Shown here: positions 1 through 15,009 of the stretch, one piece after another
Layout of the letters: each line of letters starts with the position of its first letter
Position numbering within the stretch: position 1 is the first letter of the stretch
Virus record (IMG/VR): IMGVR_UViG_3300007276_000173
Location: 1 to 32,011 of that record
DNA from: a virus
Length of the DNA stretch: 32,011 bases
Strand: one strand, 5' to 3'
Made by a program: the position numbers and the translations under genes
The notes under the pieces: model-generated
The model's database searches: none
The model's input: the letters and a program-made list of their open reading frames with translations, nothing else
What the model was told of the DNA's origin: nothing

Positions 1-273
1 CAAAATTACAAAGATGCACTTGCTTCTGTTTCTAAGAAAGAAATGGAACAAAGAAAAACTATTAAAAGACTATTGCAAGAAAAAGAAGAACTAAAAAAGC
101 AATTAGCTTTATACGGTGTTAGCGGTAATACTTTACTTCCTGATAAATTGAAGGTGTATGTATGTACTGACTGCCAAGAAATAAATGTAAAAAAAGACAA
201 TAGGAAAATAACCGTTGGTTTCTGTGATAACTGCGAACATCCTTTATGGAATGATGATGTAGCGAATAAATGA
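1..273 (+). CDS. Small coiled-coil / zinc-ribbon protein, 5' end outside window
   Basis: The frame is open from the first base, so the gene probably starts upstream; the first internal ATG is at 43. From that ATG the product is 76 residues: a charged helix rich in Lys, Glu and Leu, then a zinc-ribbon-like part with CTDC near residue 41 and CDNC near residue 61 (CxxC...CxxC). I infer a small zinc-binding protein; its function is not recognised. The helical part and the Cys part meet at a 24-bp sequence (108-131) that recurs inside the gene at 1144, so the gene may be a mosaic of two older pieces. Confidence 0.6.
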   Translation, partial: QNYKDALASVSKKEMEQRKTIKRLLQEKEELKKQLALYGVSGNTLLPDKLKVYVCTDCQEINVKKDNRKITVGFCDNCEHPLWNDDVANK

Positions 274-327
274 AATATAAGCTTTGTTAGCGTTTGTTTT
301 TACGTTGACACAAAACAAAATTAAACT

Positions 328-552
328 ATGGTAGCACATTACGACCCCTACCCAAGCGAATACGAACAAAGCCCATTTTGCGGAACGCCTGACACAGAGA
401 ACACTGTTACGAGTAACAACTGGAATTATGTTAGTTGCAAGAGGTGTTTAAAAGCAAAAGCAAAAGCTGATAAATTCGTAAAAGAAACCGAAAATATAAT
501 ACTAAACCAAATGCAAGGGTTTGTAGATCTTAACAATAAACGCTCGTTTTAA
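328..552 (+). CDS. Small Cys-containing accessory protein
   Basis: A 74-residue product with an FCG segment near residue 18 and a CKRC pair near residues 37-40, followed by a Lys/Ala-rich helix. Small proteins with the pattern CG...VxCxxCL are common among phage accessory genes and probably bind one metal ion, but no function is established here. The ATG follows an A/T-rich leader and no ribosome binding site is visible, as is normal in Bacteroidota. A terminator begins directly after the stop codon, so this is the last gene of a transcription unit. Confidence 0.6.
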   Translation: MVAHYDPYPSEYEQSPFCGTPDTENTVTSNNWNYVSCKRCLKAKAKADKFVKETENIILNQMQGFVDLNNKRSF

Positions 553-553
553 T

Positions 554-585
554 GGGGGTTTATACAGTGTTAGACCCCGTTTTTT
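554..585 (+). terminator. Intrinsic terminator after the first small-gene unit
   Basis: GGGGTTT (555-561) can pair with AGACCCC (572-578), using one G-U pair, and a T run follows (580-585). It starts two bases after the stop at 552. The loop side contains TTTATACAGTGTTAG, also found inside two coding regions. Confidence 0.75.
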
Positions 586-614
586 AAATTATTTTACATT
601 TTTTTGTATTTTTA

Positions 615-646
615 TTTGGTTGGTATTACATTATTTTGTATATTTG
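615..646 (+). promoter_or_regulatory. Bacteroidota-type promoter
   Basis: TTTG (615-618), 20-bp spacer, TATATTTG (639-646). This matches the known -33 TTTG / -7 TAnnTTTG promoter of Bacteroidota exactly. It lies between the terminator at 554 and the start codon at 671, so it should drive the small genes from 671 onward. Confidence 0.8.
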
Positions 647-670
647 CCTATATAATTAGAACCTAATATA

Positions 671-967
671 ATGGAATTACCTAAAAAAAGAACGGATTTA
701 TCAAAAATATTCGGAATTAAAAAAAGTATATTTAATTACGATAATGCTACTAAAGATGGTTGTTTATTCGGATATAGTATTTGTGCTACTTACATAAAAT
801 CTAAAAAAGATTTGTTTAATATGTTTTCAGAAATAGAGGAATTAGCATCTAAAAAAGGTTATAAAATTAAAATAGACACTTCTTTTGGTAAAAATGGTTT
901 TTCTTTTACGAAAGGTTGGCAATATGGAAGAAGTGAATATACAATATATTTTAGAGATGAAAAGTAA
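671..967 (+). CDS. Hypothetical 98-residue protein
   Basis: A Lys- and aromatic-rich 98-residue protein without signal peptide, membrane segment or recognised motif. The start codon lies 25 nt after a consensus Bacteroidota promoter, with the leader ending in AATATAATG, and this decides the start. It is the first gene of its transcript. Its last 11 nt overlap the start of the next gene (ATG at 957), which suggests translational coupling. Function not recognised. Confidence 0.6.
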   Translation: MELPKKRTDLSKIFGIKKSIFNYDNATKDGCLFGYSICATYIKSKKDLFNMFSEIEELASKKGYKIKIDTSFGKNGFSFTKGWQYGRSEYTIYFRDEK

Positions 968-1118
968 AGACTTAATAAATTGGAAGCAAATAAGTATAGA
1001 GTTGTCAGGAAGCAATAACTCTATACGTAAAAACCAAATTCCAAAAAAATACAAAGCAAAAATTGACAGGCTTTTGAAGTTACTGGAACTTTGGCAGAAG
1101 TGGTCAAATGGGGTATAA
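957..1118 (+). CDS. Small basic protein, helical
   Basis: I chose the ATG at 957, giving 53 residues (MKSKDLINWKQIS...), rather than the upstream in-frame ATG at 885. The later start leaves only a short overlap with the preceding gene (ATGAAAAGTAA) and keeps the part that looks like a family. The protein has an N-terminal NWKxIS segment, then SGSNNSIRKNQIPKKY and a C-terminal amphipathic helix. Small proteins of this appearance occur in Bacteroidota phages, but their function is unknown to me. Confidence 0.55.
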   Translation: MKSKDLINWKQISIELSGSNNSIRKNQIPKKYKAKIDRLLKLLELWQKWSNGV

Positions 1119-1143
1119 CGGCAAAGTATAAAAACAGTTTATT

Positions 1144-1383
1144 ATGAGAAGTAAAACAGCAAAACAGATATTAGACGAAACTCCGAAAGAAGTAAAAGAC
1201 AAAGTGCAAGACTATGCTAATAGATTGATTTTATACAATGTTAGCGGTAGTACGTGTAAAGAACAATTATTGTTACATAGTGTTGTTGTGCCGAAGGGAA
1301 CGTTAAAAACATTTGAAGATTTACCAGAAGAAACTAAAGAATACAGAAAGTCTGGTGATGCAATAATTTGGAAAAATAAATAG
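1144..1383 (+). CDS. Hypothetical 79-residue protein
   Basis: Residues 1-27 form a charged helix (AKQILDETPKEVKDKVQ). After about residue 28 the sequence changes character, with LYNVSGST encoded by the same 24-bp DNA found at 108-131 in an otherwise unrelated gene (21 of 24 bases shared). The C-terminal part is rich in Glu and Lys. No function is recognised. The shared DNA at the point where the protein changes suggests recombination between small genes. Confidence 0.5.
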   Translation: MRSKTAKQILDETPKEVKDKVQDYANRLILYNVSGSTCKEQLLLHSVVVPKGTLKTFEDLPEETKEYRKSGDAIIWKNK

Positions 1384-1388
1384 AAATA

Positions 1389-1622
1389 ATGACATCAGAA
1401 AGAATCAAAGAAATCCAAGAACAAACGGCTTACCCTGAAAGTGTAAGTGTGCAACAAGCCTTACTACAAGTTTGGAATGAATGCGAACAAGAGCAATTAG
1501 CTATACAACGTGTTAGCCAACGCAGTGAACTGTTAAATGGTTTTCGGGATTGGTTAATAGATGAGCGTAAAAATATACACTTTTACAGACACTTAATAGA
1601 TGATTACTTAAAAACCATTTAA
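1389..1622 (+). CDS. Hypothetical 77-residue protein
   Basis: A mostly helical, soluble 77-residue protein beginning MTSERIKEIQEQTAYP and containing VSVQQALLQVWNECEQE. No catalytic or binding motif is seen. It follows the previous stop by 5 nt, so the two are co-transcribed. The coding DNA contains another GTGTTAGC (from about 1510), a short sequence that recurs in this accessory block. Role unknown. Confidence 0.55.
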   Translation: MTSERIKEIQEQTAYPESVSVQQALLQVWNECEQEQLAIQRVSQRSELLNGFRDWLIDERKNIHFYRHLIDDYLKTI

Positions 1623-1630
1623 TTGTGTCT

Positions 1631-1673
1631 AACGTTTATGTTGTATGGATAGTTGCGGAGTTAAGAACTTAAA
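1631..1673 (+). repeat. Accessory-block spacer repeat, copy 1
   Basis: The intergenic sequence AACGTTTATGTTGTATGG, then ATAGTTGCG and further on ACTTAAA, resembles the spacer at 2243-2289 in order and spacing. Both lie between a stop codon and the next start (1686 and 2300). It is probably a conserved linker or leader rather than coding DNA. Confidence 0.45.
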
Positions 1674-1685
1674 AACCAAATAAAG

Positions 1686-1916
1686 ATGAAATTATACAAA
1701 AAATTATTAAAAAGGATTGAAAATGGCGAGCCAATATATTGCAATGAAACATTTGCTAAAGATTTAGAAGCCATAGCAAATAAACACTTTGAGCAATTAA
1801 TTTTACCCGTTGTTGTAAAGCAAAGCGAACTGTTTGAATGCCGAAACGTAGCTTGTAATAAAATGGTGAAAAGAAATAGTGGAACTGTATTTTGTAAAAA
1901 ACACAGAAATTTGTAG
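1686..1916 (+). CDS. Small protein with C-terminal metal-binding-like Cys/His cluster
   Basis: 76 residues. The first 50 are helical. The tail reads FECRNVACNKMV...VFCKKH, giving C-x4-C-x13-C-x2-H, a plausible single zinc site made from three Cys and one His. It lies after the spacer repeat at 1631. It could be a small nucleic-acid-binding or regulatory protein, but the sequence does not show which. Confidence 0.55.
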   Translation: MKLYKKLLKRIENGEPIYCNETFAKDLEAIANKHFEQLILPVVVKQSELFECRNVACNKMVKRNSGTVFCKKHRNL

Positions 1917-1937
1917 GCATTTAAAACTAAAAATATT

Positions 1938-2234
1938 ATGGATACTGAAAAGCAAATAATTGAACGAATGGAGCAATACGGATATAATAGATTAGATGCT
2001 ATTGCTTCACTCAATTTAGGTGAAAGAAGCATGGCTGCTGAAAGAGCTTCAAGAAATAGAGCAAGAAGAAAAGAATTAATGGAGTACGATATGGATTTTG
2101 AAACTGCTTGCCTAGTTGTAAACAAAGAGAATGAACGAGCGTTCATTTGCGATGCCGAAGAAAAAGGTGGTAGCAGATGCGAAACTCAATGTTTGGGATG
2201 TGATGGTTTTCAAAGAATGGATGAAGCAAATTAA
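1938..2234 (+). CDS. Small Cys-rich accessory protein
   Basis: 98 residues. The N-terminal half is helical and contains the basic run RASRNRARRKE near residues 37-47. The C-terminal part has a dense Cys cluster, CDAEEKGGSRCETQCLGC, near residues 71-88, which suggests a bound metal. The basic helix plus metal site hints at nucleic-acid binding, as inference. It is followed by the second copy of the AACGTTT spacer repeat. Confidence 0.55.
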   Translation: MDTEKQIIERMEQYGYNRLDAIASLNLGERSMAAERASRNRARRKELMEYDMDFETACLVVNKENERAFICDAEEKGGSRCETQCLGCDGFQRMDEAN

Positions 2235-2242
2235 TGTTTTAC

Positions 2243-2289
2243 AACGTTTTAGGCTATGATTAGTAGCGTGAAAATAGAAATAACTTAAA
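2243..2289 (+). repeat. Accessory-block spacer repeat, copy 2
   Basis: AACGTTTTAGGCTATGAT followed by TAGTAGCGTG and then AACTTAAA, upstream of the ATG at 2300. It is the counterpart of 1631-1673: the shared parts are AACGTTT, TATG, TAGT, GCG and ACTTAAA in the same order. Confidence 0.45.
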
Positions 2290-2299
2290 TAAAAAAACG

Positions 2300-2587
2300 A
2301 TGACAAAAGCAGAAGAAATACTAAATAAGCACCTTAAAATAATGGATGCAGAAACTATGATAGGTAAGCACGGAAGAACACATAAAGCTGTTATAAATGC
2401 AATAAATGAAGCTATTAATTATAGCCAGTGTTGTACGGAGTTAAAGGATGAACACCCACAAACTTTTGAGGAATGGTACGTAAGTGAAGGCTATGAAAAT
2501 AAGTGGACAGGATTTTGGAGAGAAGGAAAAAGCGTTACGTATTGGACTGTAAAAAATAGATACAACACATATAGGAAAAACCTTTAA
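2300..2587 (+). CDS. Hypothetical 95-residue protein
   Basis: An N-terminal helical half (AEEILNKHLKIMDAETM... INAINEAINYSQ) is followed by a Trp/Tyr-rich part with TFEEWYVSEGYENKWTGFWREGK. The second half resembles short phage or host accessory proteins with an EEWY...W.W pattern, but I cannot name the family. It is the last gene of the first accessory block. Confidence 0.55.
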   Translation: MTKAEEILNKHLKIMDAETMIGKHGRTHKAVINAINEAINYSQCCTELKDEHPQTFEEWYVSEGYENKWTGFWREGKSVTYWTVKNRYNTYRKNL

Positions 2588-2697
2588 TTACTTACAACAA
2601 TTGTATATAGTTACTAAATGTATTACAATCCCTGAATAAGTATACTAAAATAAAGACTTTAAGGATTACAGAAACTCAACACAATACGTTGGTAAAA

Positions 2698-3405: not shown

Positions 3406-3702
3406 ATGAGAACATTCGGAGAATTAATAGTCGTAGACATACCTGTATTGATGATTTTCTATACGGAAGGGAATGAAGAATCTAACAATATGCATCCAGT
3501 GATGAGAGACGTATCTGCTCATTTTGGAAATTTGGCACGGGTTGTTAAGATAGACATAGACAAGAACCAAGAATTGACAGAGGCCATGAGAGTAAAAAGT
3601 CTCCCTACCTTGATGATCTATAAAGACGGAGAACAGGTGTGGAGACATACAGGGATAAAATCCTATAAGGAATTAGTGGAACTAATAAAACGGTATGAGT
3701 AG
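3406..3702 (+). CDS. Thioredoxin-fold protein without redox cysteines
   Basis: 98 residues with the thioredoxin layout: strand VLMIFYT (residues 14-20), helix, strand ARVVKIDIDKN (44-54), helix, the conserved SLPT cis-proline loop (65-68), strand LMIYKDGEQV and a C-terminal helix. The position of the WCGPC active site reads FYTEGNEES, and the protein has no cysteine at all, so disulfide exchange is excluded. A structural or binding role is inferred, by analogy with T7 DNA polymerase, which uses thioredoxin as a processivity partner. The next gene starts inside it (overlap 3695-3702), indicating an operon. Confidence 0.75.
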   Translation: MRTFGELIVVDIPVLMIFYTEGNEESNNMHPVMRDVSAHFGNLARVVKIDIDKNQELTEAMRVKSLPTLMIYKDGEQVWRHTGIKSYKELVELIKRYE

Positions 3703-4003
3703 TTTTTCTTGTTATTCGAAGCAAGAGGGGATGGGAAAATGTAAAGGGGAATGTGAATTTTGTAAAGATCATTTCAAAAGACCCGAAACAAAAAAACCTA
3801 TTAAGAACTACAAGGATTATAGAAACGGATCTAAAGATACCGTGAACGTAGACGTCAGGATCCCTAAGGAGACGTATACTAAGTTAGAAATCTTATGTAA
3901 GTTAGATGACCGGAAAATGAACAACTTAATCGTCACGATGATATTAAATGAATTTGAAGACATAAATTATGAATTTAACAAACATATAAAAAATGAAAAT
4001 TAA
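3695..4003 (+). CDS. Cys-cluster plus ribbon-helix-helix-like protein, possible regulator
   Basis: 102 residues. Cys at 6, 16, 20 and 23 form a possible metal site near the N-terminus, followed by a basic linker. Residues 49-88 (TVNVDVRIPKETYTKLEILC, then KLDDRKMNNLIVTMILNEFE) look like a ribbon-helix-helix fold: an alternating beta strand, helix, turn, and a hydrophobic second helix containing NNLIVTMI. Such proteins dimerise and bind palindromic DNA, as Arc and CopG do. The gene overlaps its neighbours on both sides, in an operon that ends at the first copy of the repeated operator at 4273. I infer, without proof, that it may bind that operator. Confidence 0.6.
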   Translation: MSSFSCYSKQEGMGKCKGECEFCKDHFKRPETKKPIKNYKDYRNGSKDTVNVDVRIPKETYTKLEILCKLDDRKMNNLIVTMILNEFEDINYEFNKHIKNEN

Positions 4004-4286
4004 AAAACTTTATTTCAGAGGACCTAAAGGAGAATTGAGAAACCTAACTAAAACTTCTAAACCTATGTACGACTTCCTGGAAGATTATTTTTTCAATCGC
4101 AGGGGAAATTTAAAGTACGACGAATTGAATAAGGATATAAAATCTCGGAGGGAGATAAAACCTCTTCCTATAGAAGTACCTAAAGATCTCGGGAAAGAAT
4201 TCCTAAAACTCACGAAGGGAACATCGATTGTGATCTATTTTAATAGCAGTTGGAGAGCTTGTGCTAAACTAAGTATGAAACTTTAA
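3993..4286 (+). CDS. Hypothetical protein ending in the repeated element
   Basis: 97 residues, starting inside the previous gene (overlap 3993-4003). The N-terminal 60 residues are basic and helical. Near the end, IVIYFNSSWRACAKLS resembles the first strand and active-site start of a thioredoxin-like fold, but the protein then stops. The last four residues, SMKL, and the stop codon are encoded by the left end of the repeat element (AGTATGAAACTTTAA). One reading is that insertion or recombination of the repeat truncated a longer gene. Function unknown. Confidence 0.5.
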   Translation: MKIKKLYFRGPKGELRNLTKTSKPMYDFLEDYFFNRRGNLKYDELNKDIKSRREIKPLPIEVPKDLGKEFLKLTKGTSIVIYFNSSWRACAKLSMKL

Positions 4287-4355
4287 CGGTTTTTATTTTC
4301 ATACTGTATGAATGTTTCGTAAATTTACCTCATAATAATTAAAACAAGCAATATT
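4273..4355 (+). promoter_or_regulatory. Repeated operator-promoter element, copy 1
   Basis: GTATGAAA at 4273, a perfect 15-bp palindrome TTCATACTGTATGAA at 4298-4312, a 7-bp gap, then the -7-like box TAAATTTA (4320-4327) and the leader AATAATTAAAACAAGCAATATT ending at the ATG at 4356. The half-site geometry (25 nt between first half-site and palindrome) is the same in the other full copies. The first 14 bases lie inside the preceding gene and supply its stop codon. Confidence 0.75.
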
Positions 4356-4496
4356 ATGGAAAATCATTTAAAAACAGTAAGAGATTTAAGAATCAAAATA
4401 GAGAAAAGCAATGGCCCTTATGTCATGAGCAATCAAGAATGGGAATCTCTTGAATATGTAAACAAAAACGGATTAAACAGAATAGAAAATTTTTAA
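4356..4496 (+). CDS. 46-residue protein under repeat copy 1
   Basis: MENHLKTVRDLRIKIEKSNG is followed by PYVMSNQEWESLEYVNKNGL and a short tail. It is a short soluble helical protein with no recognised motif. The start directly follows the conserved leader of the repeat element, in the same position as the starts at 8025, 10037, 10462 and 11040. The next gene begins after a similar short leader (4495-4517). Confidence 0.55.
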   Translation: MENHLKTVRDLRIKIEKSNGPYVMSNQEWESLEYVNKNGLNRIENF

Positions 4497-4517
4497 TAAT
4501 TAAAACAAAACAACATC

Positions 4518-4958
4518 ATGAGAGAAGCAGAAATAATGTATTTAGGGATGAGGGAATTCAAGGGAGATTTTTCACACAAATTCATAGAAATAGATGAAGA
4601 CAATTCCCCCGGTAAAGTTTGGTCCTTTAGCTCTAAACTATTCAGCAAAGGAACCATAGGAGCGGTATACACTTGTAAATTGGAAGGGGACAATATTTCC
4701 TACAGCAAGAAAACTTGTCCGAGATATGTTCTTCAGGTGTCTGAAGGTCACGGAAAAGGCACTAGTATTTTGTTCCCTAAGCTCATAAGTGATTCAGAAA
4801 TTCTGAACGATCAAGCCTTAGTTGTAAAAAGAAACGGGACTAAGACCAAATCTTCTTTGGACAAGAACATAGAGGAAATAAGAGAGAATTATAAAGAACT
4901 ATCAAGTCAAAAACAATCCAGATTTATAGCTGATCTGGTATATAAAATAACAAGATAA
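4518..4958 (+). CDS. Hypothetical 146-residue accessory protein
   Basis: A soluble protein with a beta-rich first two-thirds (KVWSFSSKLFSKGTIGAVYT, then CKLEGDNISYSKKTCPRYVL) and a basic, helical C-terminus (SLDKNIEEIRENYKELSSQK). Three Cys are present without a metal-site spacing. The leader AATAATTAAAACAAAACAAC before its ATG closely matches the leader of repeat copies 1 and 3, though no palindrome precedes it, so it probably shares the transcript starting at copy 1. Function not recognised. Confidence 0.6.
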   Translation: MREAEIMYLGMREFKGDFSHKFIEIDEDNSPGKVWSFSSKLFSKGTIGAVYTCKLEGDNISYSKKTCPRYVLQVSEGHGKGTSILFPKLISDSEILNDQALVVKRNGTKTKSSLDKNIEEIRENYKELSSQKQSRFIADLVYKITR

Positions 4959-4980
4959 TGAGGACTAAATTATTTAAGGA

Positions 4981-5103
4981 ATGATACACATTAAGATCAA
5001 AAAGGGAGAATTAATCGAGGTTAAAACCGATCGGAGTTTTTCCTACGACTTAGAAGAGAAGAATTTTATAAAGGAGGTAATATTGACGAGTATGAAACTT
5101 TAA
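4981..5103 (+). CDS. 40-residue protein ending in the repeat element
   Basis: MIHIKIKKGELIEVKTDRSF followed by SYDLEEKNFIKEVILTSMKL. It is short and charged, probably a two-strand plus helix unit. Like the gene ending at 4286, its last residues SMKL and stop are encoded by a copy of the repeat's left end (GTATGAAACTTTAACG at 5090). It could be a fragment cut off by the repeat. Confidence 0.4.
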   Translation: MIHIKIKKGELIEVKTDRSFSYDLEEKNFIKEVILTSMKL

Positions 5104-5120
5104 CGCATAAAAATATTATA
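5090..5120 (+). promoter_or_regulatory. Truncated copy of the repeated element (copy 2)
   Basis: GTATGAAACTTTAACG (5090-5105) is identical to the left end of the other copies. The palindrome and -7 box are missing, and the DNA goes directly to an A/T leader and the ATG at 5121. It carries only one half-site, so it is probably not a functional promoter. Confidence 0.6.
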
Positions 5121-5216
5121 ATGGAAGAAGAATTCGAATGCGACGTCTGTGGCAAACCTATTGAAAAGGCCGGACTATGTGGATCAAAACCATGTTTGGA
5201 AGCAGACATGATGTAA
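5121..5216 (+). CDS. 31-residue zinc-finger-like microprotein
   Basis: Four cysteines (7, 10, 20, 25) in the pattern CDVCGKPI...LCGSKPC, consistent with one small treble-clef or knuckle zinc site. The start lies at the end of truncated repeat copy 2. The stop codon (5214-5216) lies within the first GTAAACA repeat of the following non-coding region. Its role is unknown; the Cys pattern is the main support for it being real. Confidence 0.5.
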   Translation: MEEEFECDVCGKPIEKAGLCGSKPCLEADMM

Positions 5217-5489
5217 ACAAAGTAAACAATAAATAAACAATCATTGTTTACACGGTTTGACCAATGGTAGTATATGATTGGCTAAGGTGTAAACAATGTA
5301 AACAATAAAACACATAAACTTTTGAAAGTATATGTAATATACTGAATATAGGAGTAATACACACTATAAACACGTTACGTAGGATTACAAAAGTTTCTCG
5401 CTTTTATTGTTTACATTGTTTACACCTTAGGGAAACGTAAGCAGGCATTGCAATAATTGAGAAACAATACATTGTTTACTTTGTTTACA
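5212..5489. repeat. Nested inverted repeats of GTAAACA units (origin, packaging or control region)
   Basis: A non-coding region immediately before the packaging genes. The outer pair TGTAAACAAAGTAAACAAT (5212-5230) is the exact reverse complement of 5471-5489. The inner pair is a perfect 29-bp inverted repeat (5282-5310 against 5402-5430), each arm holding two GTAAACA units. TAAACAAT-C-ATTGTTTA (5234-5250) is a further palindrome, and AGTATAT-GTA-ATATACT (5327-5343) another of different sequence. CCAAT/ATTGG at 5261 and 5277 also pair. Repeated units in both orientations suggest a protein-binding array, such as a replication origin, a cos/pac site or a control region. No coding sequence is seen in 5217-5512. 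Confidence 0.8.
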
Positions 5490-5508
5490 AAATAAATTCG
5501 TAGATTTG
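5480..5508 (+). promoter_or_regulatory. Bacteroidota-type promoter at the end of the repeat region
   Basis: TTTG (5480-5483), 17-bp spacer, TAGATTTG (5501-5508). The -33 element lies within the right outer inverted repeat, so any protein bound there could control it. The ATG of the next gene starts at 5513, where transcription is also expected to begin, so the mRNA may be leaderless. Confidence 0.75.
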
Positions 5509-5512
5509 TCCT

Positions 5513-5746
5513 ATGACACTGAAACAAATATCAATAGAAATTATAAGACCTTTTGTAGTTTTCTTCGGGAAGAGGAAATCTCGCAATAGACGAAAAACAA
5601 AAGAGGTCATAGAAGACTATGAAAAACTCATAGCTGAGTTCAAATTGATTCAAAATAAAGAATCCAAATTGTCTTCTACTCAAAGGAAAATGGTACGTGC
5701 AAGGATCGTACATTTAGTAGGTAAAGGACACATAAAAGTATCATAA
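5513..5746 (+). CDS. Small basic protein upstream of terS
   Basis: 77 residues: a hydrophobic/basic N-terminus (IIRPFVVFFGKRKSRNRRK), then a helix (EDYEKLIAEFKLIQNKESKL) and SSTQRKMVRARIVHLVGKGHIKV. Small proteins with a similar ending (KxSxxxR..V..RV..L...GHI) occur near the packaging genes of Bacteroidota phages as I recall them, but the function is not established. It is separated from terS by only 2 nt, so it is probably co-expressed with it and possibly involved in packaging. Confidence 0.6.
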   Translation: MTLKQISIEIIRPFVVFFGKRKSRNRRKTKEVIEDYEKLIAEFKLIQNKESKLSSTQRKMVRARIVHLVGKGHIKVS

Positions 5747-5748
5747 GT

Positions 5749-6282
5749 ATGACTGTAAATAAATTGACTCCGAAACAAGAAGCCTTCGCTCAAGCATACT
5801 TGAGAACAGGTAATTTAACTGCATCGTATAAAGAAGCATACAATGCATCCAATATGAAAGAGATGACTATAGCAGTGAGAGCATCCAAGTTATCACGTGA
5901 GTATAAAGTCGGTAATAGAATTCAAGAATTACGGAATGAAATGCAAGAACGCAACAGAGTCGATCTCGATGATCTCATACAAGAACTCTCGAACATGGTC
6001 AGATTTGATCCTGCAGATATGTATGATGAGAACGGGAACATGAAGAAAATGAATGATATGCCTAAACCCGTTCGTCAGATGATAGCAGGACTAGAAACCC
6101 AAGAAATGAAAGTACACATGGACGGGGAATCATTCACAGTAGGACACTTAAAGAAAGTAAAGCTCATGGACAAACTAGGAGCGATAGAGAAGCTTATTAA
6201 ATATTTCGACGGGTATAATAAGCACAATAAGTCTAAGACCGGAGACGTAGTCATATACCAACTACCTGATAATAAAAGATAA
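5749..6282 (+). CDS. terS: Terminase small subunit
   Basis: 177 residues. The N-terminus, LTPKQEAFAQAYLRTGNLTA followed by SYKEAYN, is the hallmark of the terminase small-subunit family (Terminase_2), with the helix-turn-helix that binds packaging-site DNA. The middle (VDLDDLIQELSNMVRFDPAD) and the KLGAIEKLIKYF segment also fit the family. The protein forms a ring that recognises viral DNA and regulates the large subunit. It is followed 93 bp later by terL and preceded by a repeat-rich region that could hold its recognition site. Confidence 0.88.
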   Translation: MTVNKLTPKQEAFAQAYLRTGNLTASYKEAYNASNMKEMTIAVRASKLSREYKVGNRIQELRNEMQERNRVDLDDLIQELSNMVRFDPADMYDENGNMKKMNDMPKPVRQMIAGLETQEMKVHMDGESFTVGHLKKVKLMDKLGAIEKLIKYFDGYNKHNKSKTGDVVIYQLPDNKR

Positions 6283-6283
6283 A

Positions 6284-6334
6284 ATGTCGAGGTCTTTTAA
6301 AGATAAACGAAGAGGCACCGGGGTCTTGTAAAGA
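6284..6334 (+). other. terS-terL spacer with direct repeat and tiny open frame
   Basis: GGTCTTTTAAAGA (6291-6303) and GGTCTTGTAAAGA (6322-6334) differ at one base and flank a GC-rich patch, GAGGCACCGGGG, unusual in this AT-rich genome. The patch could be a packaging or cos feature. The same DNA could encode a 15-residue basic peptide (ATG 6284, stop 6331), for which there is no other support. Confidence 0.3.
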
Positions 6335-6337
6335 ACA

Positions 6338-6371
6338 TTTAGTTTTTATTTCTAAAAAATAGGTATATTTG
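6338..6371 (+). promoter_or_regulatory. Promoter of terL, giving a near-leaderless transcript
   Basis: A consensus -7 box TATATTTG at 6364-6371, with a weak -33 candidate TTTAG at 6338-6342. The terL ATG is at 6376, only 4 bases after the box, where transcription is expected to start. A leaderless mRNA is therefore likely if this promoter is used. Confidence 0.6.
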
Positions 6372-6375
6372 CTAA

Positions 6376-7941
6376 ATGCAAGAGCCTAAAATTATAAAAC
6401 CTCAACCCGGGTTTCAAGAAAAATTCCTTTCCTCCCCAGCAGACATTGTGATTGGGGGTTCAGCTGCTGGAGTTGGAAAGACTTATGGATTACTTCTAGA
6501 ATATTTAAGGAACAAAGATGTAAAAGGATTCGGGGGAGTGATCTTCAGGAGAACTTCTCCTCAGATAAGACTGGAGGGAGGACTATGGGATACGTCTATG
6601 GCCATATATCCTTTTGTAGGAGCAACACCAAGGGAAAGTTCTTTAGAGTGGAATTTTGGTCCAAGTAAGCTTAAATTTGCACACTTAGAATACGAAAAGA
6701 ATAAACTTGACTACCAGGGAGCTCAAATTCCTCTCATAGGATTCGATGAGCTCACCCATTTTTCTGAAACTATGTTCTTTTATTTGCTCACAAGGAATAG
6801 ATCTACTTGTGGAGTGAAGCCTTACGTGAGGGCAACATGTAATCCTGATCCAGAAAGTTGGGTAGCTAAACTGATCGAGTGGTGGATCGATCAAGACACA
6901 GGCTATCCTATCCCTGAGAGAGACGGAGTTGTACGATATTTCATTAGGTATGGTAGCAATTACATTTGGGGAGATAACAAACAAGAAGTGATTGACAAAG
7001 CTCAATTTGTAATAACTGAGATGCTTGAAAAATCCAGAAAAGCAGCAGAGGAACAAGGAATAGAGAATTCCATAACAGCAGAGGACTTCGTTAAATCCAT
7101 CACATTCATATCAGGATCCATATACCAAAATCAAGAGCTTCTTAAAATAAATCCTGCATATTTAGCTAACCTTTTATCTCAGGATGAAGCTACCAGAAGA
7201 TCATTGCTTGACAGTAACTGGAAGTTTGTTCAATCGGATGCTGACATATATGATTATGAGTCGTTCAAAGGAATGTTTGAAAATGTATTCGAAGTGAAGG
7301 AGGCAAACAGAAAAAGGATAGTTGCCGATATTGCTTTAAAAGGATCCAATAAGTTCATCGTAAGTTATTTTGAAGGTAGATCTCTAGAAGATATGACCAT
7401 AATGGAAAAATCTGACGGAAAAGAAGTGTTGGATGCGATAGTGAATATGGCCATAAAGCATGGAGTTGCCAATAAGGACATATTGTTCGATGCTGACGGA
7501 GTAGGAGGATACATTGATGGTTTTCTTAAAGGATCTAAATCTTTTCACGGAGGAGCAAGGCCTATGAAGGTCTATAATCCTGTAACAGGTAAAAACGAGG
7601 ACGAGAATTATTTCAACTTGAAGACTCAATTGATATACAGAGCAGGAGATGCGGTCAACAGGAATAAATACGTTGTTTCCGACTATGTACAGAACATGAG
7701 GTTCGATAAATCTATGACGGTTAAGCAAAGAATGATTTTTGAACGAAAGGCTTTTAAACGGGACAAGATTGACCATGACGGGAAGCTTAAGGTCATAGGC
7801 AAAGATGAAATGAAAGCCATGCTTCAAAATGAGTCTCCGGATGTACTTGATACCCTATTCATGAACGAGCTATTCGAAATCAAAAGACAACCGTCAAGAC
7901 ACGCTATCTCTGAATCCCAAGCTAAGACTCTTTACTATTAA
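6376..7941 (+). CDS. terL: Terminase large subunit (packaging ATPase/nuclease)
   Basis: 521 residues, a full-length two-domain terminase. The ATPase domain has Walker A GGSAAGVGKT (27-36), Walker B LIGFDE (120-125) and a motif-III-like RATCNPD (152-158). The C-terminal RNase-H-like nuclease shows VADIA with Asp 318 and FDADGVGG with Asp 372 and Asp 374, the expected metal-binding acids. It drives DNA into the procapsid through the portal and cuts the concatemer. It has its own promoter in the terS-terL gap. Its stop codon abuts repeat copy 3, so read-through would enter the accessory gene at 8025 rather than portal. Confidence 0.93.
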   Translation: MQEPKIIKPQPGFQEKFLSSPADIVIGGSAAGVGKTYGLLLEYLRNKDVKGFGGVIFRRTSPQIRLEGGLWDTSMAIYPFVGATPRESSLEWNFGPSKLKFAHLEYEKNKLDYQGAQIPLIGFDELTHFSETMFFYLLTRNRSTCGVKPYVRATCNPDPESWVAKLIEWWIDQDTGYPIPERDGVVRYFIRYGSNYIWGDNKQEVIDKAQFVITEMLEKSRKAAEEQGIENSITAEDFVKSITFISGSIYQNQELLKINPAYLANLLSQDEATRRSLLDSNWKFVQSDADIYDYESFKGMFENVFEVKEANRKRIVADIALKGSNKFIVSYFEGRSLEDMTIMEKSDGKEVLDAIVNMAIKHGVANKDILFDADGVGGYIDGFLKGSKSFHGGARPMKVYNPVTGKNEDENYFNLKTQLIYRAGDAVNRNKYVVSDYVQNMRFDKSMTVKQRMIFERKAFKRDKIDHDGKLKVIGKDEMKAMLQNESPDVLDTLFMNELFEIKRQPSRHAISESQAKTLYY

Positions 7942-8024
7942 GTATGAAACTTTAATGGTTTATATTTCCATACTGTATGAATAATACGTAGATTGGCTGT
8001 ATAATAATTAAAACAAGCAATATT
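7942..8024 (+). promoter_or_regulatory. Repeated operator-promoter element, copy 3
   Basis: GTATGAAA at 7942; palindrome TCCATACTGTATGAA at 7967-7981 (one mismatch in the left arm); 7-bp gap; -7-like box TAGATTGG (7989-7996); leader AATAATTAAAACAAGCAATATT; ATG at 8025. The leader matches copy 1 closely. It begins at the base after the terL stop codon. Confidence 0.75.
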
Positions 8025-8351
8025 ATGACAACAGAAGAAATTAATCTATTAGTAAGAGAACTCAGAGAATTAGGGTTCAGAATGACAAGAAAAGCATCGG
8101 AGAGGGAAGAGCTATCTTGTATCAATGTAAAAGTCTTACCTAAGACCATAGTGAGTAAGATTATGACTTTAGACGTAAGAGAAATAGACCTGGAGATGGA
8201 AACTAAAGGACTATTTAAGGCCGTATTCTCGGAAGATGTACACGAATTAGTTATATTTAAGACTACTTATAAAGGAATAGAAAGAATGATATTGGGAGAC
8301 AACCAAGGATACGATTATTGCAGATATGCTATAGAAATAGTAGGAGTATAA
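8025..8351 (+). CDS. Accessory (moron) protein between terL and portal, 108 residues
   Basis: Starts with a helix (TTEEINLLVRELRELGFRMT), then strands (SCINVKVLPKTI; EIDLEMETKGLFKAVFSED; HELVIFKTTYKGI). No membrane segment, signal peptide or catalytic motif is seen. It sits between two essential head genes but has its own promoter (copy 3) and a strong terminator. That is the definition of a moron: a gene carried by the phage with autonomous expression. It could act on the host or on competing phages; that is inference from its arrangement. Confidence 0.65.
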   Translation: MTTEEINLLVRELRELGFRMTRKASEREELSCINVKVLPKTIVSKIMTLDVREIDLEMETKGLFKAVFSEDVHELVIFKTTYKGIERMILGDNQGYDYCRYAIEIVGV

Positions 8352-8372
8352 CCTCATCTAAAAGTAAAAATA

Positions 8373-8405
8373 AAAAGGACATTTATAAATAATGTCCTTT
8401 TTTTA
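8373..8405 (+). terminator. Strong intrinsic terminator after the 8025 gene
   Basis: The stem AAGGACATT/AATGTCCTT (GGACATT 8377-8383 with AATGTCC 8391-8397, extended by A-T pairs), a 7-nt loop and a run of seven T. It isolates portal from upstream transcription. Confidence 0.9.
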
Positions 8406-8406
8406 T

Positions 8407-8414
8407 TACATTTG
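8407..8414 (+). promoter_or_regulatory. -7 box of the portal promoter
   Basis: TACATTTG (8407-8414) fits TAnnTTTG and follows the terminator directly. The ATG of portal is at 8437. No clear -33 TTTG is visible because the terminator hairpin occupies that region. Confidence 0.6.
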
Positions 8415-8436
8415 GGACTTACTAAAGGACTAAATA

Positions 8437-9864
8437 ATGGATGAAGAACTGAAACGATTAATGGATCTATTGAAATCGGATCCTGAAAAAGCAATAGCCG
8501 AGATCCGAAAGACTTCTAAAGACGTTGATGCGATTGCTAATTATATAAAGGAATACAGGGAGGAAGACAGATCTCAAAGAGACGGACAAGTAGGAGTCAT
8601 TCAAAGGGATAAATCTTTAGCCGGAAATAAGATTCAAAAAATGGTTAAGATCTACATTAACCATGCACAGAACATAGTTGAGACCTTGTCTGCTTTCATT
8701 ATAGGCAAACCTGTTACACTTATTCCTTCAGAAGATAATAATCTATCGGAATTAGTTAAACAGATATGGAGGGTGAATAGGATTGATTCTAAAATCCTTA
8801 AATCCACCATAGTTAAACTTTCTCAGACTCAGGTAGCTATGAATTTTTATATAAACGACATAGAACCTAATTCCATACTAAATAAAATACTGGTAAGTCT
8901 TAAGCTGAAAGCTCAAGCCAAAGAGATCAAAGTAAAGGTGTTAGACAACACGACGGGCGTTATGACTCCTTACTTTGATTCCGCCGGTAACATGATTCTA
9001 TTCATGTGGCAATACAGTACCTCATCAGACGGCCAAACCATAAACCATGTAGAGATATGGGACGAGACTACTAAATTCTATTTGAATGATGAATCTTCGA
9101 AAATGATCATCATAGAATCTCCCCCTCACGGTTTTGATAGAATCCCTATGGTGTACGACGACCAGAGAGACCCTCAGTGGTATCCAGTAAAATCTCCTGT
9201 AGACAGACACGAAGTGGCTTTGTCTAAACTAGGAGATGCTAATGATTATTCGGGTCATCCTATCCTAATTACAGAAGGAGAGGTAGTAGGAATGCCTACT
9301 AAAGACGAAAGTGGTAAGCATTTCAATATCCCTATAAAATATGATGATGAAGGAAATGAGATAAAAGGAAAAGTAAGTTTCTTAGAAGCTAAAACTGCTC
9401 CAGAATCTAATAAATTAGAGATAGAAAAACTAGAAGATATAATTTCTTACGGATCCAGTGTTCCTAATCTTTCTTTAAATAAACTTAAGGATTTAGGAAA
9501 CGTTGCTGAGAAAACAGTAAAGCTTATGTTCTTAGGAACGGAATTAAAAGCTGAGCTAATGCGATCCAACACTAGAACTTTTATAGAAAGGTGTCTGAAT
9601 GTATTGATTTCAGGAATAACTAAGACCACAAACACTTCTTTGGCCACAGAGGGACAAACTCTCTATTATGACATCCATTTTAATTCCATACTCCCGAGTG
9701 ATATTGCTGAGAGAGTAGAAACTGTTACTAAAGCAGTAGATTCAGGCCTGATGAGCAAAGAGACCGGGATTGGATTAATAGACTTAGTGGAAGACATAAA
9801 AGATGAGATGGATAAAATAGCCTTGGAAACTAAAATTAAAGATCCTGTAGAACCTATTGAATAA
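8437..9864 (+). CDS. Portal protein
   Basis: 475 residues, usual size for an SPP1 gp6-like portal, the ring at the capsid vertex through which DNA enters and leaves. Family-like parts are the N-terminal region with NYIKEYREEDRSQRDGQVGV, the KIQKMVKIYINHAQNIVETLSAFIIGKP region near residues 67-94, the HGFDRIPMVYD segment and the C-terminal helices before SDIAERVETVTKAVDSGLMS. It has its own promoter after the moron terminator, and is followed by a non-coding unit and terminator. Confidence 0.88.
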   Translation: MDEELKRLMDLLKSDPEKAIAEIRKTSKDVDAIANYIKEYREEDRSQRDGQVGVIQRDKSLAGNKIQKMVKIYINHAQNIVETLSAFIIGKPVTLIPSEDNNLSELVKQIWRVNRIDSKILKSTIVKLSQTQVAMNFYINDIEPNSILNKILVSLKLKAQAKEIKVKVLDNTTGVMTPYFDSAGNMILFMWQYSTSSDGQTINHVEIWDETTKFYLNDESSKMIIIESPPHGFDRIPMVYDDQRDPQWYPVKSPVDRHEVALSKLGDANDYSGHPILITEGEVVGMPTKDESGKHFNIPIKYDDEGNEIKGKVSFLEAKTAPESNKLEIEKLEDIISYGSSVPNLSLNKLKDLGNVAEKTVKLMFLGTELKAELMRSNTRTFIERCLNVLISGITKTTNTSLATEGQTLYYDIHFNSILPSDIAERVETVTKAVDSGLMSKETGIGLIDLVEDIKDEMDKIALETKIKDPVEPIE

Positions 9865-9880
9865 TTTAGTACATTAGCAA

Positions 9881-9953
9881 TTCAAAGGATTTTTCCATTT
9901 TGTTACGTTTTGATTAATAGCTAAGCCTATCCTCTCTCAGGGATAGGCTTTTA
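9881..9953 (+). ncRNA. Candidate small non-coding RNA after portal
   Basis: TTTAGTACATTAGC (9865-9878), containing the -7-like TACATTAG (9870-9877), stands just after the portal stop. No ATG follows it. TTTTGATTAATAGC (9908-9921) and a strong terminator (9923-9953) come next. The same three parts in the same order occur at 11330-11410. The RNA ends are inferred from the box and terminator; there may instead be only a conserved 3' untranslated region. Confidence 0.35.
9923..9953 (+). terminator. Intrinsic terminator after portal
   Basis: Perfect 10-bp stem AAGCCTATCC (9923-9932) with GGATAGGCTT (9941-9950), 8-nt loop, then a short T run. Confidence 0.85.
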
Positions 9954-9956
9954 CTT

Positions 9957-10036
9957 GTATGAAACTTTAACGGCTTATATTTTCATACTATATGAATAAT
10001 ATGGATATTAGCACTATAATCAAAACAATTAATATT
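9957..10036 (+). promoter_or_regulatory. Repeated operator-promoter element, copy 4
   Basis: GTATGAAA at 9957; palindrome TTCATACTATATGAA at 9982-9996 (one mismatch in the right arm); 7-bp gap; -7-like box GATATTAG (10004-10011); leader CACTATAATCAAAACAATTA...; ATG at 10037. It follows a terminator, so transcription of the next cassette probably starts here. Confidence 0.75.
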
Positions 10037-10240
10037 ATGAGAAAAACAACAGAAACAGAGAAAGAAGTATTTTCTTTCCTTAACGACCTTCGAGATTCCG
10101 GAGCAACTAATATGTTTGGAGCAACTCCTTTCATAATGGATGAATTCAATTTGGATCAAGCAACTTCTAAAAGGTTATTGTCTACATGGATGAATAACTT
10201 CAACAAAGAAGGTAATTACGAAGAGGTAAAAGATGCCTAA
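10037..10240 (+). CDS. Small phage protein with TNMFGA motif
   Basis: I place the start at 10037 (67 residues) because the in-frame ATG at 9992 lies inside the operator palindrome, upstream of the expected transcription start. The sequence VFSFLNDLRDSGATNMFGAT, PFIMDEFNLDQATSKRLLSTW, MNNFNKEG resembles a widespread short phage family with LNxLRxSGxTNMFGAxPyI and a winged-helix-like ending; its function is unknown to me. The next gene starts inside its 3' end (10233), so the two are translationally coupled. Confidence 0.7.
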   Translation: MRKTTETEKEVFSFLNDLRDSGATNMFGATPFIMDEFNLDQATSKRLLSTWMNNFNKEGNYEEVKDA

Positions 10241-10349
10241 ATTCAAATTCTGTAAGAAATGCCTAACAATGACTCCTCACAAAGAGGTTAAGATCCCAGG
10301 CAAAAAGTGGCCAAAAATAGTTTGCACCATCTGTAAAAGAGAATCTTAA
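10233..10349 (+). CDS. 38-residue zinc-ribbon microprotein
   Basis: MPKFKFCKKCLTMTPHKEVK is followed by IPGKKWPKIVCTICKRES. Two CxxC pairs (residues 7-10 and 31-34) form a classic zinc-ribbon layout. It overlaps the end of the preceding TNMFGA gene by 8 nt, as in a two-gene operon, and a UUCG-loop terminator follows its stop. Basic residues suggest nucleic-acid binding, as inference. Confidence 0.7.
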   Translation: MPKFKFCKKCLTMTPHKEVKIPGKKWPKIVCTICKRES

Positions 10350-10356
10350 ACCAACT

Positions 10357-10379
10357 AAGCTCCTTCGGGAGCTTTTTTA
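10357..10379 (+). terminator. Intrinsic terminator with UUCG loop
   Basis: Stem AAGCTCC (10357-10363) with GGAGCTT (10368-10374), stable TTCG loop, then T run. It closes the second cassette. Confidence 0.9.
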
Positions 10380-10382
10380 CTT

Positions 10383-10461
10383 GTATGAAACTTTAACGGT
10401 TTATATTTTCATACTGTATGAATAATATGTATATTAGCACTATAATTAAAAACATAAAATC
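10383..10461 (+). promoter_or_regulatory. Repeated operator-promoter element, copy 5
   Basis: GTATGAAA at 10383; perfect palindrome TTCATACTGTATGAA at 10408-10422; 7-bp gap; -7-like box TATATTAG (10430-10437); leader CACTATAATTAAAAACATAA...; ATG at 10462. It is almost identical to copy 6, including the first bases of the gene (ATGGAAACTTTAA). Confidence 0.8.
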
Positions 10462-10926
10462 ATGGAAACTTTAAAAATCACAAAAAAAATTACTTTCGAA
10501 CAATTCATCAGCCAAGGGTATTCTCAGAAATTAGCAGAAAACTTCGGAATGGAACACATCAAAAAAGAACAAGAAACAAGATGGGGAAAATACAATCCTG
10601 AAGTTTACATCTGTGAAGGAACAAAATCCAAGACCTACGGGTTAGGGTTCATCGTAATGCTAAGATATAAAGCTGATGGATTAAATTTCCTTAAAAGAAT
10701 TACTTCCTATGGATCTTCTTCTATTACCTCTCAAGGATTATGCTACGCATATTCAGGGGCATTCGGAGTAAGTCCAGAAATTACAGAAGAGATAATAGGA
10801 AAACTAAGAGAAGCAGGTCAAGATACGGACACATTCACTACAATAAGATTCGGAAAAGAATATTTCGACAAAGGGGAATCAAATAGAAAAATATGGAGAC
10901 AACAATCTTGGATCACATTATTCTAA
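10462..10926 (+). CDS. Accessory (moron) protein, 154 residues
   Basis: A soluble alpha/beta protein with a basic helical N-terminus (ITKKITFEQFISQGYSQKLA), a glycine/serine-rich centre (TYGLGFIVMLRYKADGLNFL; ITSYGSSSITSQGLCYAYSG) and an acidic helix (SPEITEEIIGKLREAGQDTD). No known motif is recognised. It is the only gene of its own promoter-terminator cassette. The first four codons (METL) match the 11040 gene because the repeat extends into the coding sequence. Confidence 0.65.
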   Translation: METLKITKKITFEQFISQGYSQKLAENFGMEHIKKEQETRWGKYNPEVYICEGTKSKTYGLGFIVMLRYKADGLNFLKRITSYGSSSITSQGLCYAYSGAFGVSPEITEEIIGKLREAGQDTDTFTTIRFGKEYFDKGESNRKIWRQQSWITLF

Positions 10927-10934
10927 AAACGATT

Positions 10935-10957
10935 AAGCTCCTCCGGGAGCTTTTTTA
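10935..10957 (+). terminator. Intrinsic terminator after the 10462 gene
   Basis: Stem AAGCTCC (10935-10941) with GGAGCTT (10946-10952), 4-nt loop TCCG, then T run. Its stem is identical to that of the terminator at 10357. Confidence 0.9.
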
Positions 10958-10960
10958 TTT

Positions 10961-11039
10961 GTATGAAACTTTAACGGTTTATATTTTCATACTGTATGAA
11001 TAATAGGTATATTAGCACTATAATTAAAAACATAAAATC
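10961..11039 (+). promoter_or_regulatory. Repeated operator-promoter element, copy 6
   Basis: GTATGAAA at 10961; perfect palindrome TTCATACTGTATGAA at 10986-11000; 7-bp gap; -7-like box TATATTAG (11008-11015); leader identical in type to copy 5; ATG at 11040. Confidence 0.8.
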
Positions 11040-11324
11040 ATGGAAACTTTAAGAACAGGAACAATCACAATCGAGTACAACGGGACAACAATCGAACGTA
11101 TAAAAACAGTTCAGTTTGTTACCGTTACAATAGTAAATCCTCAAGGAAAAACTATAAATAAACACGATGCTAAAATTTTCATACCTGGTACACATGAACA
11201 GAACGGGCAAGTATTTGAGCACAGATATAAATTCGCCTTGGTTTCTTTTGCTAAAAGAATAAAATCTCAATTTAGCACTACCCTCGAGGGGGAAATTTAC
11301 AACCTTCAATTCTCAGGACTTTAA
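11040..11324 (+). CDS. Accessory (moron) protein, 94 residues, beta-rich
   Basis: Short strands dominate (GTITIEYNGTTIERIKTVQF, VTVTIVNPQGKTINKHDAKI, FIPGTHEQNGQVFEHRYKFA). This suggests a small all-beta domain, with a short C-terminal strand (EGEIYNLQFSGL). No signal peptide, no cysteine, and no recognised family. It is the last of the repeat-driven cassettes and is followed by a conserved non-coding unit and terminator. Confidence 0.65.
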   Translation: METLRTGTITIEYNGTTIERIKTVQFVTVTIVNPQGKTINKHDAKIFIPGTHEQNGQVFEHRYKFALVSFAKRIKSQFSTTLEGEIYNLQFSGL

Positions 11325-11345
11325 ACTTTTTTAGTACATTAGCTA

Positions 11346-11410
11346 AGTTCTAACTACAAATTTTGATTGATAGCCATTTTTAAAAGCTCCTGTAAAAAGG
11401 GAGCTTTTTT
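11346..11410 (+). ncRNA. Candidate small non-coding RNA after the 11040 gene
   Basis: The upstream TTTAGTACATTAGC (11330-11343) is identical to 9865-9878 and contains TACATTAG. TTTTGATTGATAGC (11361-11374) differs by one base from 9908-9921, and a terminator follows. No start codon is available in the segment. The paired conservation is seen directly; RNA identity is inferred. Confidence 0.35.
11382..11410 (+). terminator. Intrinsic terminator before the scaffold gene
   Basis: Stem AAAAGCTCC (11382-11390) with GGAGCTTTT (11400-11408), loop of 9 nt, then T run. It isolates scaffold and capsid from the accessory cassettes. Confidence 0.88.
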
Positions 11411-11419
11411 GTTGCGATC

Positions 11420-14482: not shown

Positions 14483-15009
14483 TGAACAACACTATAAATA
14501 CTCCTGTAACAGCAGACATAGTAATTCAAAAACTACAAACTTATCTTTTTGATAATTTGGGTTGGAGTCCTATAGAAGTTTATGGGAGAGTTTATAAAAA
14601 TAAAATAGACTCAGGAACAGTTCCCCAATCCTACAAAGGGGAAGGGGACTATGTTCCGGACGTCTTTTTCACCGACAAAGGTCAAAATAAAGGAAATATA
14701 TTTTTCATACTGGATGATAAACATAAATCGATTAACGTTAAGGATATGAAAGTCCAAACCAAGATAGTTTTTATGCTAAATCTTAAACTGATTTTCAACG
14801 ATGATTCCCAAAGGCAAGATGCTAAAGCTCAACAAGAAGCTTGGAATCTTATAAAAAAGAAAAATCAATTCACTTTAAAAGGAATAGAAACAGGGATGGA
14901 AACTGTATTAAAAGGATTTAATCTTTCTGAAATACAAAAGGCAGACATAGAACCTTTACACATTTTCGCCATAGTCGGAGATTTAAAATACACAATTAAT
15001 AAATGTTAA
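14482..15009 (+). CDS. Neck or tail-completion protein (probable)
   Basis: 175 residues with an alpha/beta pattern (TADIVIQKLQTYLFDNLGW; GNIFFILDDKHKSINVKDMK; TKIVFMLNLKLIFND), an overall shape seen in tail terminator proteins that cap the tail tube. It lies between the adaptor candidate and the major tail protein, as expected. There is no motif that would prove it. It shares a TAATG stop-start junction with the preceding gene. Confidence 0.5.
   Translation: MNNTINTPVTADIVIQKLQTYLFDNLGWSPIEVYGRVYKNKIDSGTVPQSYKGEGDYVPDVFFTDKGQNKGNIFFILDDKHKSINVKDMKVQTKIVFMLNLKLIFNDDSQRQDAKAQQEAWNLIKKKNQFTLKGIETGMETVLKGFNLSEIQKADIEPLHIFAIVGDLKYTINKC

Follow-up and report, generated by a model that had tools for sequence, protein, structure and literature searches.

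What kind of regulatory element is repeated in front of the small genes that are scattered through the packaging and head region of a virus record of 32,011 b (IMGVR_UViG_3300007276_000173; this whole stretch of DNA is called the window below)? The original prediction described an operator, built around the palindrome TTCATAC-T-GTATGAA, that would unite these genes in a regulon and could take the place of a missing -33 promoter element. Bacteroidota have unusual promoters, and few regulatory sequences of their phages are known. Judging from the sequence comparisons below, the element is probably a mobile phage promoter that is read by its -33-region and -7 boxes, heads moron-like cassettes and belongs to a class that is also found in the Chryseobacterium jumbo phages MA9V-1 (OR050627) and MA9V-2 (OR513085).

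Five copies of the element are present where they had been predicted (4273, 7942, 9957, 10383 and 10961), all with the predicted spacing, i.e., a GTATGAA half-site, the start of the palindrome 25 nt later and 7 nt between the palindrome and a promoter box. The box sequence quoted at the time is that of copies 4 and 5 (TATATTAG); copies 1–3 differ from it, with TAAATTTA, TAGATTGG and GATATTAG, respectively. Three of the palindromes (4298, 10408 and 10986) are perfect and the other two (7967 and 9982) each carry a single mismatch; palindrome-like matches number 16 against 1.9 expected (maximum of 6 in 100 shuffles). A blastn search with copy 4 recovers the other four copies, a partial sixth copy at 5090 that consists of GTATGAAACTTTAACG only, without the palindrome, and a weak match at 14697, inside coding sequence. 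As all five copies are carried by L013, a separately assembled record of about 7 kb with eight differences from the window in 6,989 b (two of them in copy 3), they are not an assembly artefact.

Copies 1 and 4, which have diverged the most, differ at only one of their first 40 bp, compared to 11 of the 26 positions that make up the core promoter and the region of the start (Fisher p = 6e-5). The upstream block is therefore more tightly constrained than the core promoter, and on this comparison the conserved unit is a 40-bp block, wider than the half-sites and partly common to other phages. The related phage G001 has a different three-copy element, of which copies a and c differ at 0/39 positions in the block, 8/14 in the spacer and 7/13 in the core; its homology to the window block is not significant (p 0.03–0.56).

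The class becomes apparent outside this group of phages. Among 50,697 phage records (2.3 Gb), blastn with copy 4 gave an intergenic match in MA9V-1 (E=2e-5), a lytic phage (PMC10537231) whose 213-kb genome matches copy 4 at 13 places. At these places TTTAACGNTTTAWATTTTCATA is followed by exactly 16 nt and then by TAHATTT[GA]. The anatomy common to the window and MA9V consists of TTTAACGnTTTAwATTTTCATA and a Bacteroidota -7 box with exactly 16 nt between them; the 16-nt spacer occurs in 13/13 best MA9V-1 copies and in 5/5 window copies, and the leader ACTATAATTAAAAAC is common to the window and several MA9V-1 copies. A weight matrix built from the 13 MA9V-1 copies alone finds exactly five sites on the + strand of the window, scoring 19.9–35.6 bits, with the next site at 2.1; on the - strand the highest score is 13.2, and 100 simulated windows gave a maximum of 12.4. 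The occurrence of copies in other phages also makes the repeated element more than chance. In total, approximately 35–43 class sites are found in MA9V-1, the number varying with the cut-off, and nearly all of them are on the + strand; MA9V-2 has 36–37, all on the + strand (control 0). Wherever the annotation of MA9V-1 was inspected, the sites lie some 50–100 nt before the starts of coding sequences, and the genes behind them include a DNA ligase gene, the gene for GyrB and one whose sigma-like product contains Sigma70 region 2. The MA9V copies agree with those of the window in the ATTTTCATA box, the upstream box, the -7 box type, the spacer and the leader, and often also in having a stable hairpin upstream. 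They differ from the window copies in that they continue with TTTTCAYATGTC, mostly have TTGCC instead of TTTAACG upstream, and have neither the GTATGAA half-sites nor the palindrome.

Separately, an inverted repeat, TTCCCAAAYG-TTTTCA-CRTTTGGGAA, is centred on the -33-region box at 22307, 85260 and 177588 in MA9V-1 and at 68, 125787 and 218480 in MA9V-2. This repeat may act as an operator, or else as a terminator that overlaps the promoter.

According to the proposed mechanism, each window copy would be a complete promoter, consisting of a TTTAACG box (about -50 to -44), the -33-region box ATTTTCATA, exactly 16 nt and a -7 box, with transcription predicted to start 4–5 nt past the latter (near 4332, 8001, 10016, 10442 and 11020 for copies 1–5, respectively). 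The -7 and -33 parts would be read by the host sigma-ABfr RNA polymerase, and the upstream TTTAACG box may give strength or be bound by alpha or by a phage factor. The same class would serve some 35–37 genes in each of the two unrelated Chryseobacterium jumbo phages. A cassette would comprise the promoter, one or two small genes and mostly a terminator, placed between genes that are contiguous in relatives, so that the accessory genes could be transcribed apart from the late operons, perhaps early or in the middle of infection. The palindrome would contribute no more than a further layer of control to the promoter. Promoter and neighbouring terminator may have spread by recombination between genes and phages, independently of the gene behind.

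Several findings weigh against this proposal. All five window -7 boxes are imperfect, those of copies 2–5 being one or two bases off a TAHATTT[GA]-like box, and no terminator precedes copies 1 and 2. The class is missing from the five other Bacteroidota phages tested (pT24, Nekkels_1, 6H, RAP44 and P12002S) and is therefore rare. No protein is common to the window and MA9V-1. Lastly, a bare promoter leaves unexplained why the right arm of the palindrome and the upstream GTATGAA are kept in 5/5 copies, with a single base changed in copy 3.

The conservation of the upstream block while the -7 boxes drift, a pattern repeated by the unrelated element of G001, also suits an activator, a phage protein that would sit on the block and bring polymerase to a weak core promoter, like MotA at the middle promoters of T4. 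The block is missing from hosts as well, which fits such an activator. T4 middle promoters likewise combine a phage-specific -30-region box with a host-like -10/-7 box; they differ in that no MotA-like protein was identified here, and we know of no T4 counterpart of the TTTAACG box. Since the window and MA9V-1 have no protein in common, a common phage-encoded activator is not supported and no candidate for it is at hand. Furthermore, boxes of the TAnnTTAG type also serve ordinary head operons in the related phages G015 and G016, so the cores are not unusually weak, and the extended upstream sequence would equally fit an UP-like element for which host polymerase suffices. The activator is thus a rather doubtful reading. 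There is a slim chance that the class depends on a factor of MA9V-type jumbo phages; the cassettes would then be silent until superinfection and the small phage would sense the transcription programme of a competitor.

The position of the palindrome bears on its role. Across the genome of Flavobacterium johnsoniae the -33 motif is weak, so an absent TTTG proves little; the -7 consensus of this species, TAHHTTTG, covers -12 to -5 (PMC6847099). In this numbering, TTTTCATA lies at -36 to -29 and TTTC at -35 to -32, the position expected for TTTG. With TTTC placed at -33, the left arm of the palindrome belongs to the -33-region box of the promoter. The palindrome as a whole spans -34 to -20 and its right arm -27 to -20. 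The idea that it replaces a missing -33 element consequently finds no support, as its left arm is that box and the best MA9V-1 copies keep the 16-nt spacing without any palindrome. Only the window phage has the right arm and the upstream GTATGAA; the palindromic site does not accompany the class in MA9V-1 and MA9V-2. As all five window copies keep these two parts, they may form an operator superimposed on the promoter. What stands of the predicted regulon is one repeated promoter element before dispersed accessory genes in the packaging and head region; the palindrome is probably not its defining site. Exact-word scans of IMG/VR for the 17-mer, the palindrome and the three-half-site pattern, the last of which had been proposed as a check, give only L013 and chance matches, those checked being mostly coding.

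A dimeric phage repressor is a possible, if tentative, explanation. It would bind TTCATAC-T-GTATGAA and the upstream GTATGAA, cover the -33/-7 spacer and keep the accessory genes off as a regulon. In its favour are the three GTATGAA half-sites in fixed register and the symmetric site in 5/5 copies, the location of the palindrome relative to the start, and the far better conservation of the 40-bp block than of the core between diverged copies. Moreover, related records contain 223 promoter-like sites, of which 21% have a strong palindrome (score of at least 8) within 40 nt upstream of the -7 box, compared to 2% in shuffles. Possibly the repressor is an Arc-like ribbon-helix-helix protein whose gene adjoins copy 1 and is the sole DNA-binding candidate next to any copy; it matches PHROG 582 (E=2e-5) and, more weakly, three more Arc-like PHROGs. 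This protein is only a lead; its gene has no relative in IMG/VR or INPHARED, its structure model is unusable (pLDDT 35) and an autoregulatory site was not found at the gene. The ribbon-helix-helix protein NikR reads GTATGA-N16-TCATAC (PMC7055735), a resemblance only; the window spacing is N20 for the outer pair of half-sites and N1 for the inner pair, and a NikR operator was rejected. The repressor reading is further weakened by the absence of the palindrome from the class in MA9V-1 and MA9V-2 and by TTTC taking the -33 position.

Putative operators of other kinds are seen in related phages. Tandem palindromes (AACATATTTTGTT, TAATATAATTTATTA, GAATATAATTTATTC, TTGTAAAATTTACAA, GTAACATAATATGTTAC) abut the -7 box in L021, L022, L025, L034, L040, L114 and L131. 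They occur at two or three late promoters per phage (the ParB-methylase operon, tRNA-Met and tail) with a sequence that differs between phages, and are candidate phage-specific late-gene operators. About a dozen related flavobacterial phages have TTATTTAGAATNATTCTAAATAA approximately 14 nt upstream of the -7 box at the promoter of the head (scaffold) operon, and similar boxes precede a second gene in G011 and G013 (Table 1). Of 295 Bacteroidia genomes, 69 contain the TTATTTAGAATNATTCTAAATAA core, for which the control gave no match at all; in these genomes it precedes genes for TonB receptors, Fe-S assembly, heme oxygenase and HemA. By this genomic context it is a host Fur box, and therefore host iron status may control the phage head genes. 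This side finding may matter more than the promoter class.

The Fur-type box at the head-operon promoter of relatives illustrates that capture of host sites happens, and the palindrome has a 7-1-7 form; a binding site for a host regulator, captured by the phage, could thus be considered for the window element as well. It is hardly credible, since a count over 395 Bacteroidia genomes finds the palindrome (TTCATACNGTATGAA) no more often than chance would give (8 matches and 8 in the reversed control), which means that it is not a common host operator, and the promoter block occurs in 1/247 Bacteroidia genomes with 2 in the reversed control. With these class-wide counts a host operator, for the palindrome as well as for the block, was dismissed.

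The gene order also favours the preferred reading, a mobile promoter. G001 and G002 are close relatives of the window phage (72% in TerL and capsid), and its head genes are the same in G001/G002, G015, G016 and L028, while 0/16 related records compared carry any gene behind the five copies. The terL-portal gap measures 495 nt in the window and 38 nt in G001; from the portal gene to the next head gene (scaffold) there are 1,635 nt, compared to about 240 nt in G015 and G016. The accessory genes thus sit between packaging and head genes that adjoin each other in relatives. Copy 2 begins directly after the terL stop codon, with a leader identical to that of copy 1, and terminators adjoin copies 3–5 on the 5′ side. 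The accessory open reading frames (ORFs) of cassette 1, from 4356 onward, have no Pfam or PHROG match, a PADLOC search gave only one weak match (the 46-aa ORF, E=0.006), and the proteins at 8025 and 10462 have no IMG/VR relatives beyond L013. No known RNA family was matched. The features are collected in Table 1.

Table 1. Promoter copies, cassettes and neighbouring genes of the window, and TTATTTAGAATNATTCTAAATAA sites in related phages
Feature	Position	Strand	Details
Arc-like ribbon-helix-helix protein	3695-4003	+	candidate regulator
Copy 1	4273..4355	+	GTATGAAAC, block 4282-4303, 16-nt spacer, -7 box TAAATTTA 4320-4327, leader; 35.6 bits, top score
Accessory ORF (46 aa) behind copy 1	4356..4496	+	no relative in 16 related records
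Second ORF (146 aa) after 46-aa ORF	4518-4958	+	
Sixth, truncated copy GTATGAAACTTTAACG	5090..5105	+	before ORF 5121-5216; block-only score 10.3
terS	5749		Pfam Terminase_2
terL	6376		
Copy 2	7942..8024	+	block 7951-7972, -7 box TAGATTGG 7989-7996; 19.9 bits
Accessory ORF (108 aa) between terL and portal	8025..8351	+	only relative is L013
Terminator-like hairpin ending cassette 2	8372..8402	.	then separate -7-like box TACATTTG (8407) before portal
Portal	8437		
Terminator directly 5′ of copy 3	9923..9950	+	
Copy 3	9957..10036	+	block 9966-9987, -7 box GATATTAG 10004-10011 (TATATTAG in L013); 20.8 bits
Accessory ORFs behind copy 3	10037-10240 (67 aa), 10233-10349 (38 aa)	+	
Terminator directly 5′ of copy 4	10357..10374	+	
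Copy 4	10383..10461	+	block 10392-10413, palindrome 10408-10422, -7 box TATATTAG 10430-10437; 29.9 bits
Accessory ORF (154 aa) behind copy 4	10462..10926	+	only relative is L013
Terminator directly 5′ of copy 5	10935..10952	+	
Copy 5	10961..11039	+	block 10970-10991, -7 box TATATTAG 11008-11015; 28.0 bits
Accessory ORF (94 aa) behind copy 5	11040..11324	+	no relative in 16 related records
Gene between portal and capsid	11500		named scaffold by position only
Capsid protein E	12598		
TTATTTAGAATNATTCTAAATAA sites in related phages	G013 28991, G012 60497, L034 9176, L037 6381, L101 8859, L103 8864, L105 8888, L106 8887, L108 8872, L121 1626, L123 410		
Boxes similar to TTATTTAGAATNATTCTAAATAA before second gene	G011 7982, G013 43450		

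Copies 4 and 5 have 134 nt in common (terminator, promoter and first codons), 94% identical, in front of unrelated genes. These common flanks before different genes, together with the truncated copy at 5090, could also result from a repeat that acts only as a recombination hot spot and has no promoter role. This is very unlikely, given the 16-nt spacing to the -7 box in 18/18 copies, their single orientation and their location 50–100 nt before start codons. A duplicated flank around the three-cassette block is not significant (13/500 shuffles). Two other candidates were set aside. For an integron attC-like element no matching partner sequence was found, and an N4-type hairpin promoter (TTCATA-CTG-TATGAA) would be possible in its geometry, but copy 2 has an interrupted stem and a polymerase to go with it was not seen.

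Compared to known systems, the cassettes resemble morons of lambdoid phages, which are promoter-gene-terminator units between genes contiguous in relatives. The window has such extra genes, and by sequence most cassettes have their own promoter and terminator; the difference is that several cassettes in one genome share one promoter element. They also resemble the PeSL of T4-type phages, described as mobile cassettes of promoter and stem-loop that are shuffled among genes (Arbiol 2010, as cited in PMC3950731 and PMC4177764). PeSL and the HGTV-1 motif are likewise repeated stem-loops with a promoter between genes, swapped between genes and phages, and the window element is a repeated intergenic promoter too; it differs in its Bacteroidota promoter type, its stem-loop in 3/5 copies and its accessory genes inside the head region. 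The SAS/ESAS elements of Cluster K phages likewise recur in front of some of the genes and contain inverted repeats, with a sequence that varies by phage group (PMC3203893). They adjoin the start codon, unlike the window block, which lies some 50–90 nt upstream of the ATG and in the structural half; identity with this 13-bp repeat at the translation start was therefore rejected. The absence of earlier reports for Bacteroidota phages, as stated in the original prediction, is plausible: the literature on MA9V-1 and MA9V-2 that was found does not mention promoters, in a search that was incomplete, and we could not find a description of the promoter class or of its presence in both a jumbo phage and a small phage whose head genes are unrelated.

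Some further observations concern the same record. Just 5′ of the packaging operon, at 5205-5510, lies a cluster of TGTTTAC/GTAAACA repeats (direct with a period of 9, and inverted), and G001 has an equivalent layout with TGTTTCC/GGAAACA at about 21690-22110; the cluster is a candidate packaging (pac/cos) or terminase-binding region. A -7-like box, TACATTAG, with a terminator some 50 nt further on is present at both 9868-9955 and 11333-11412, and the portal-scaffold interval of G015 and G016 has a similar short unit including a conserved ATGATTGAACCTCCCAATTT; these units could possibly encode a small RNA or a tiny ORF. At about 2629-2835, a ribbon-helix-helix-like frame without an ATG, GTG or TTG start has 66% identity to gp46 of Flavobacterium phage 6H (PHROG 25647, E 7e-32), and is probably a gene with an alternative start codon or a decayed gene. 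Lastly, TAACG/GTTAGCGGT motifs separate the small genes in window 1-2600, and in L030 imperfect inverted repeats of 137 bp (1282-1418 and 3718-3855), which start with TAACGG and end near GTTA, flank small genes. This layout resembles, by analogy, integron attC-type cassettes.

The promoter class gives a testable consensus and spacing for a phage promoter in Bacteroidota, and predicts transcription starts for about 70 genes of MA9V-1 and MA9V-2. It could serve as an expression tool in Flavobacteriia. For the phages themselves, the class would be common to two otherwise unrelated groups and would, as a mobile unit, introduce accessory genes to the structural region.

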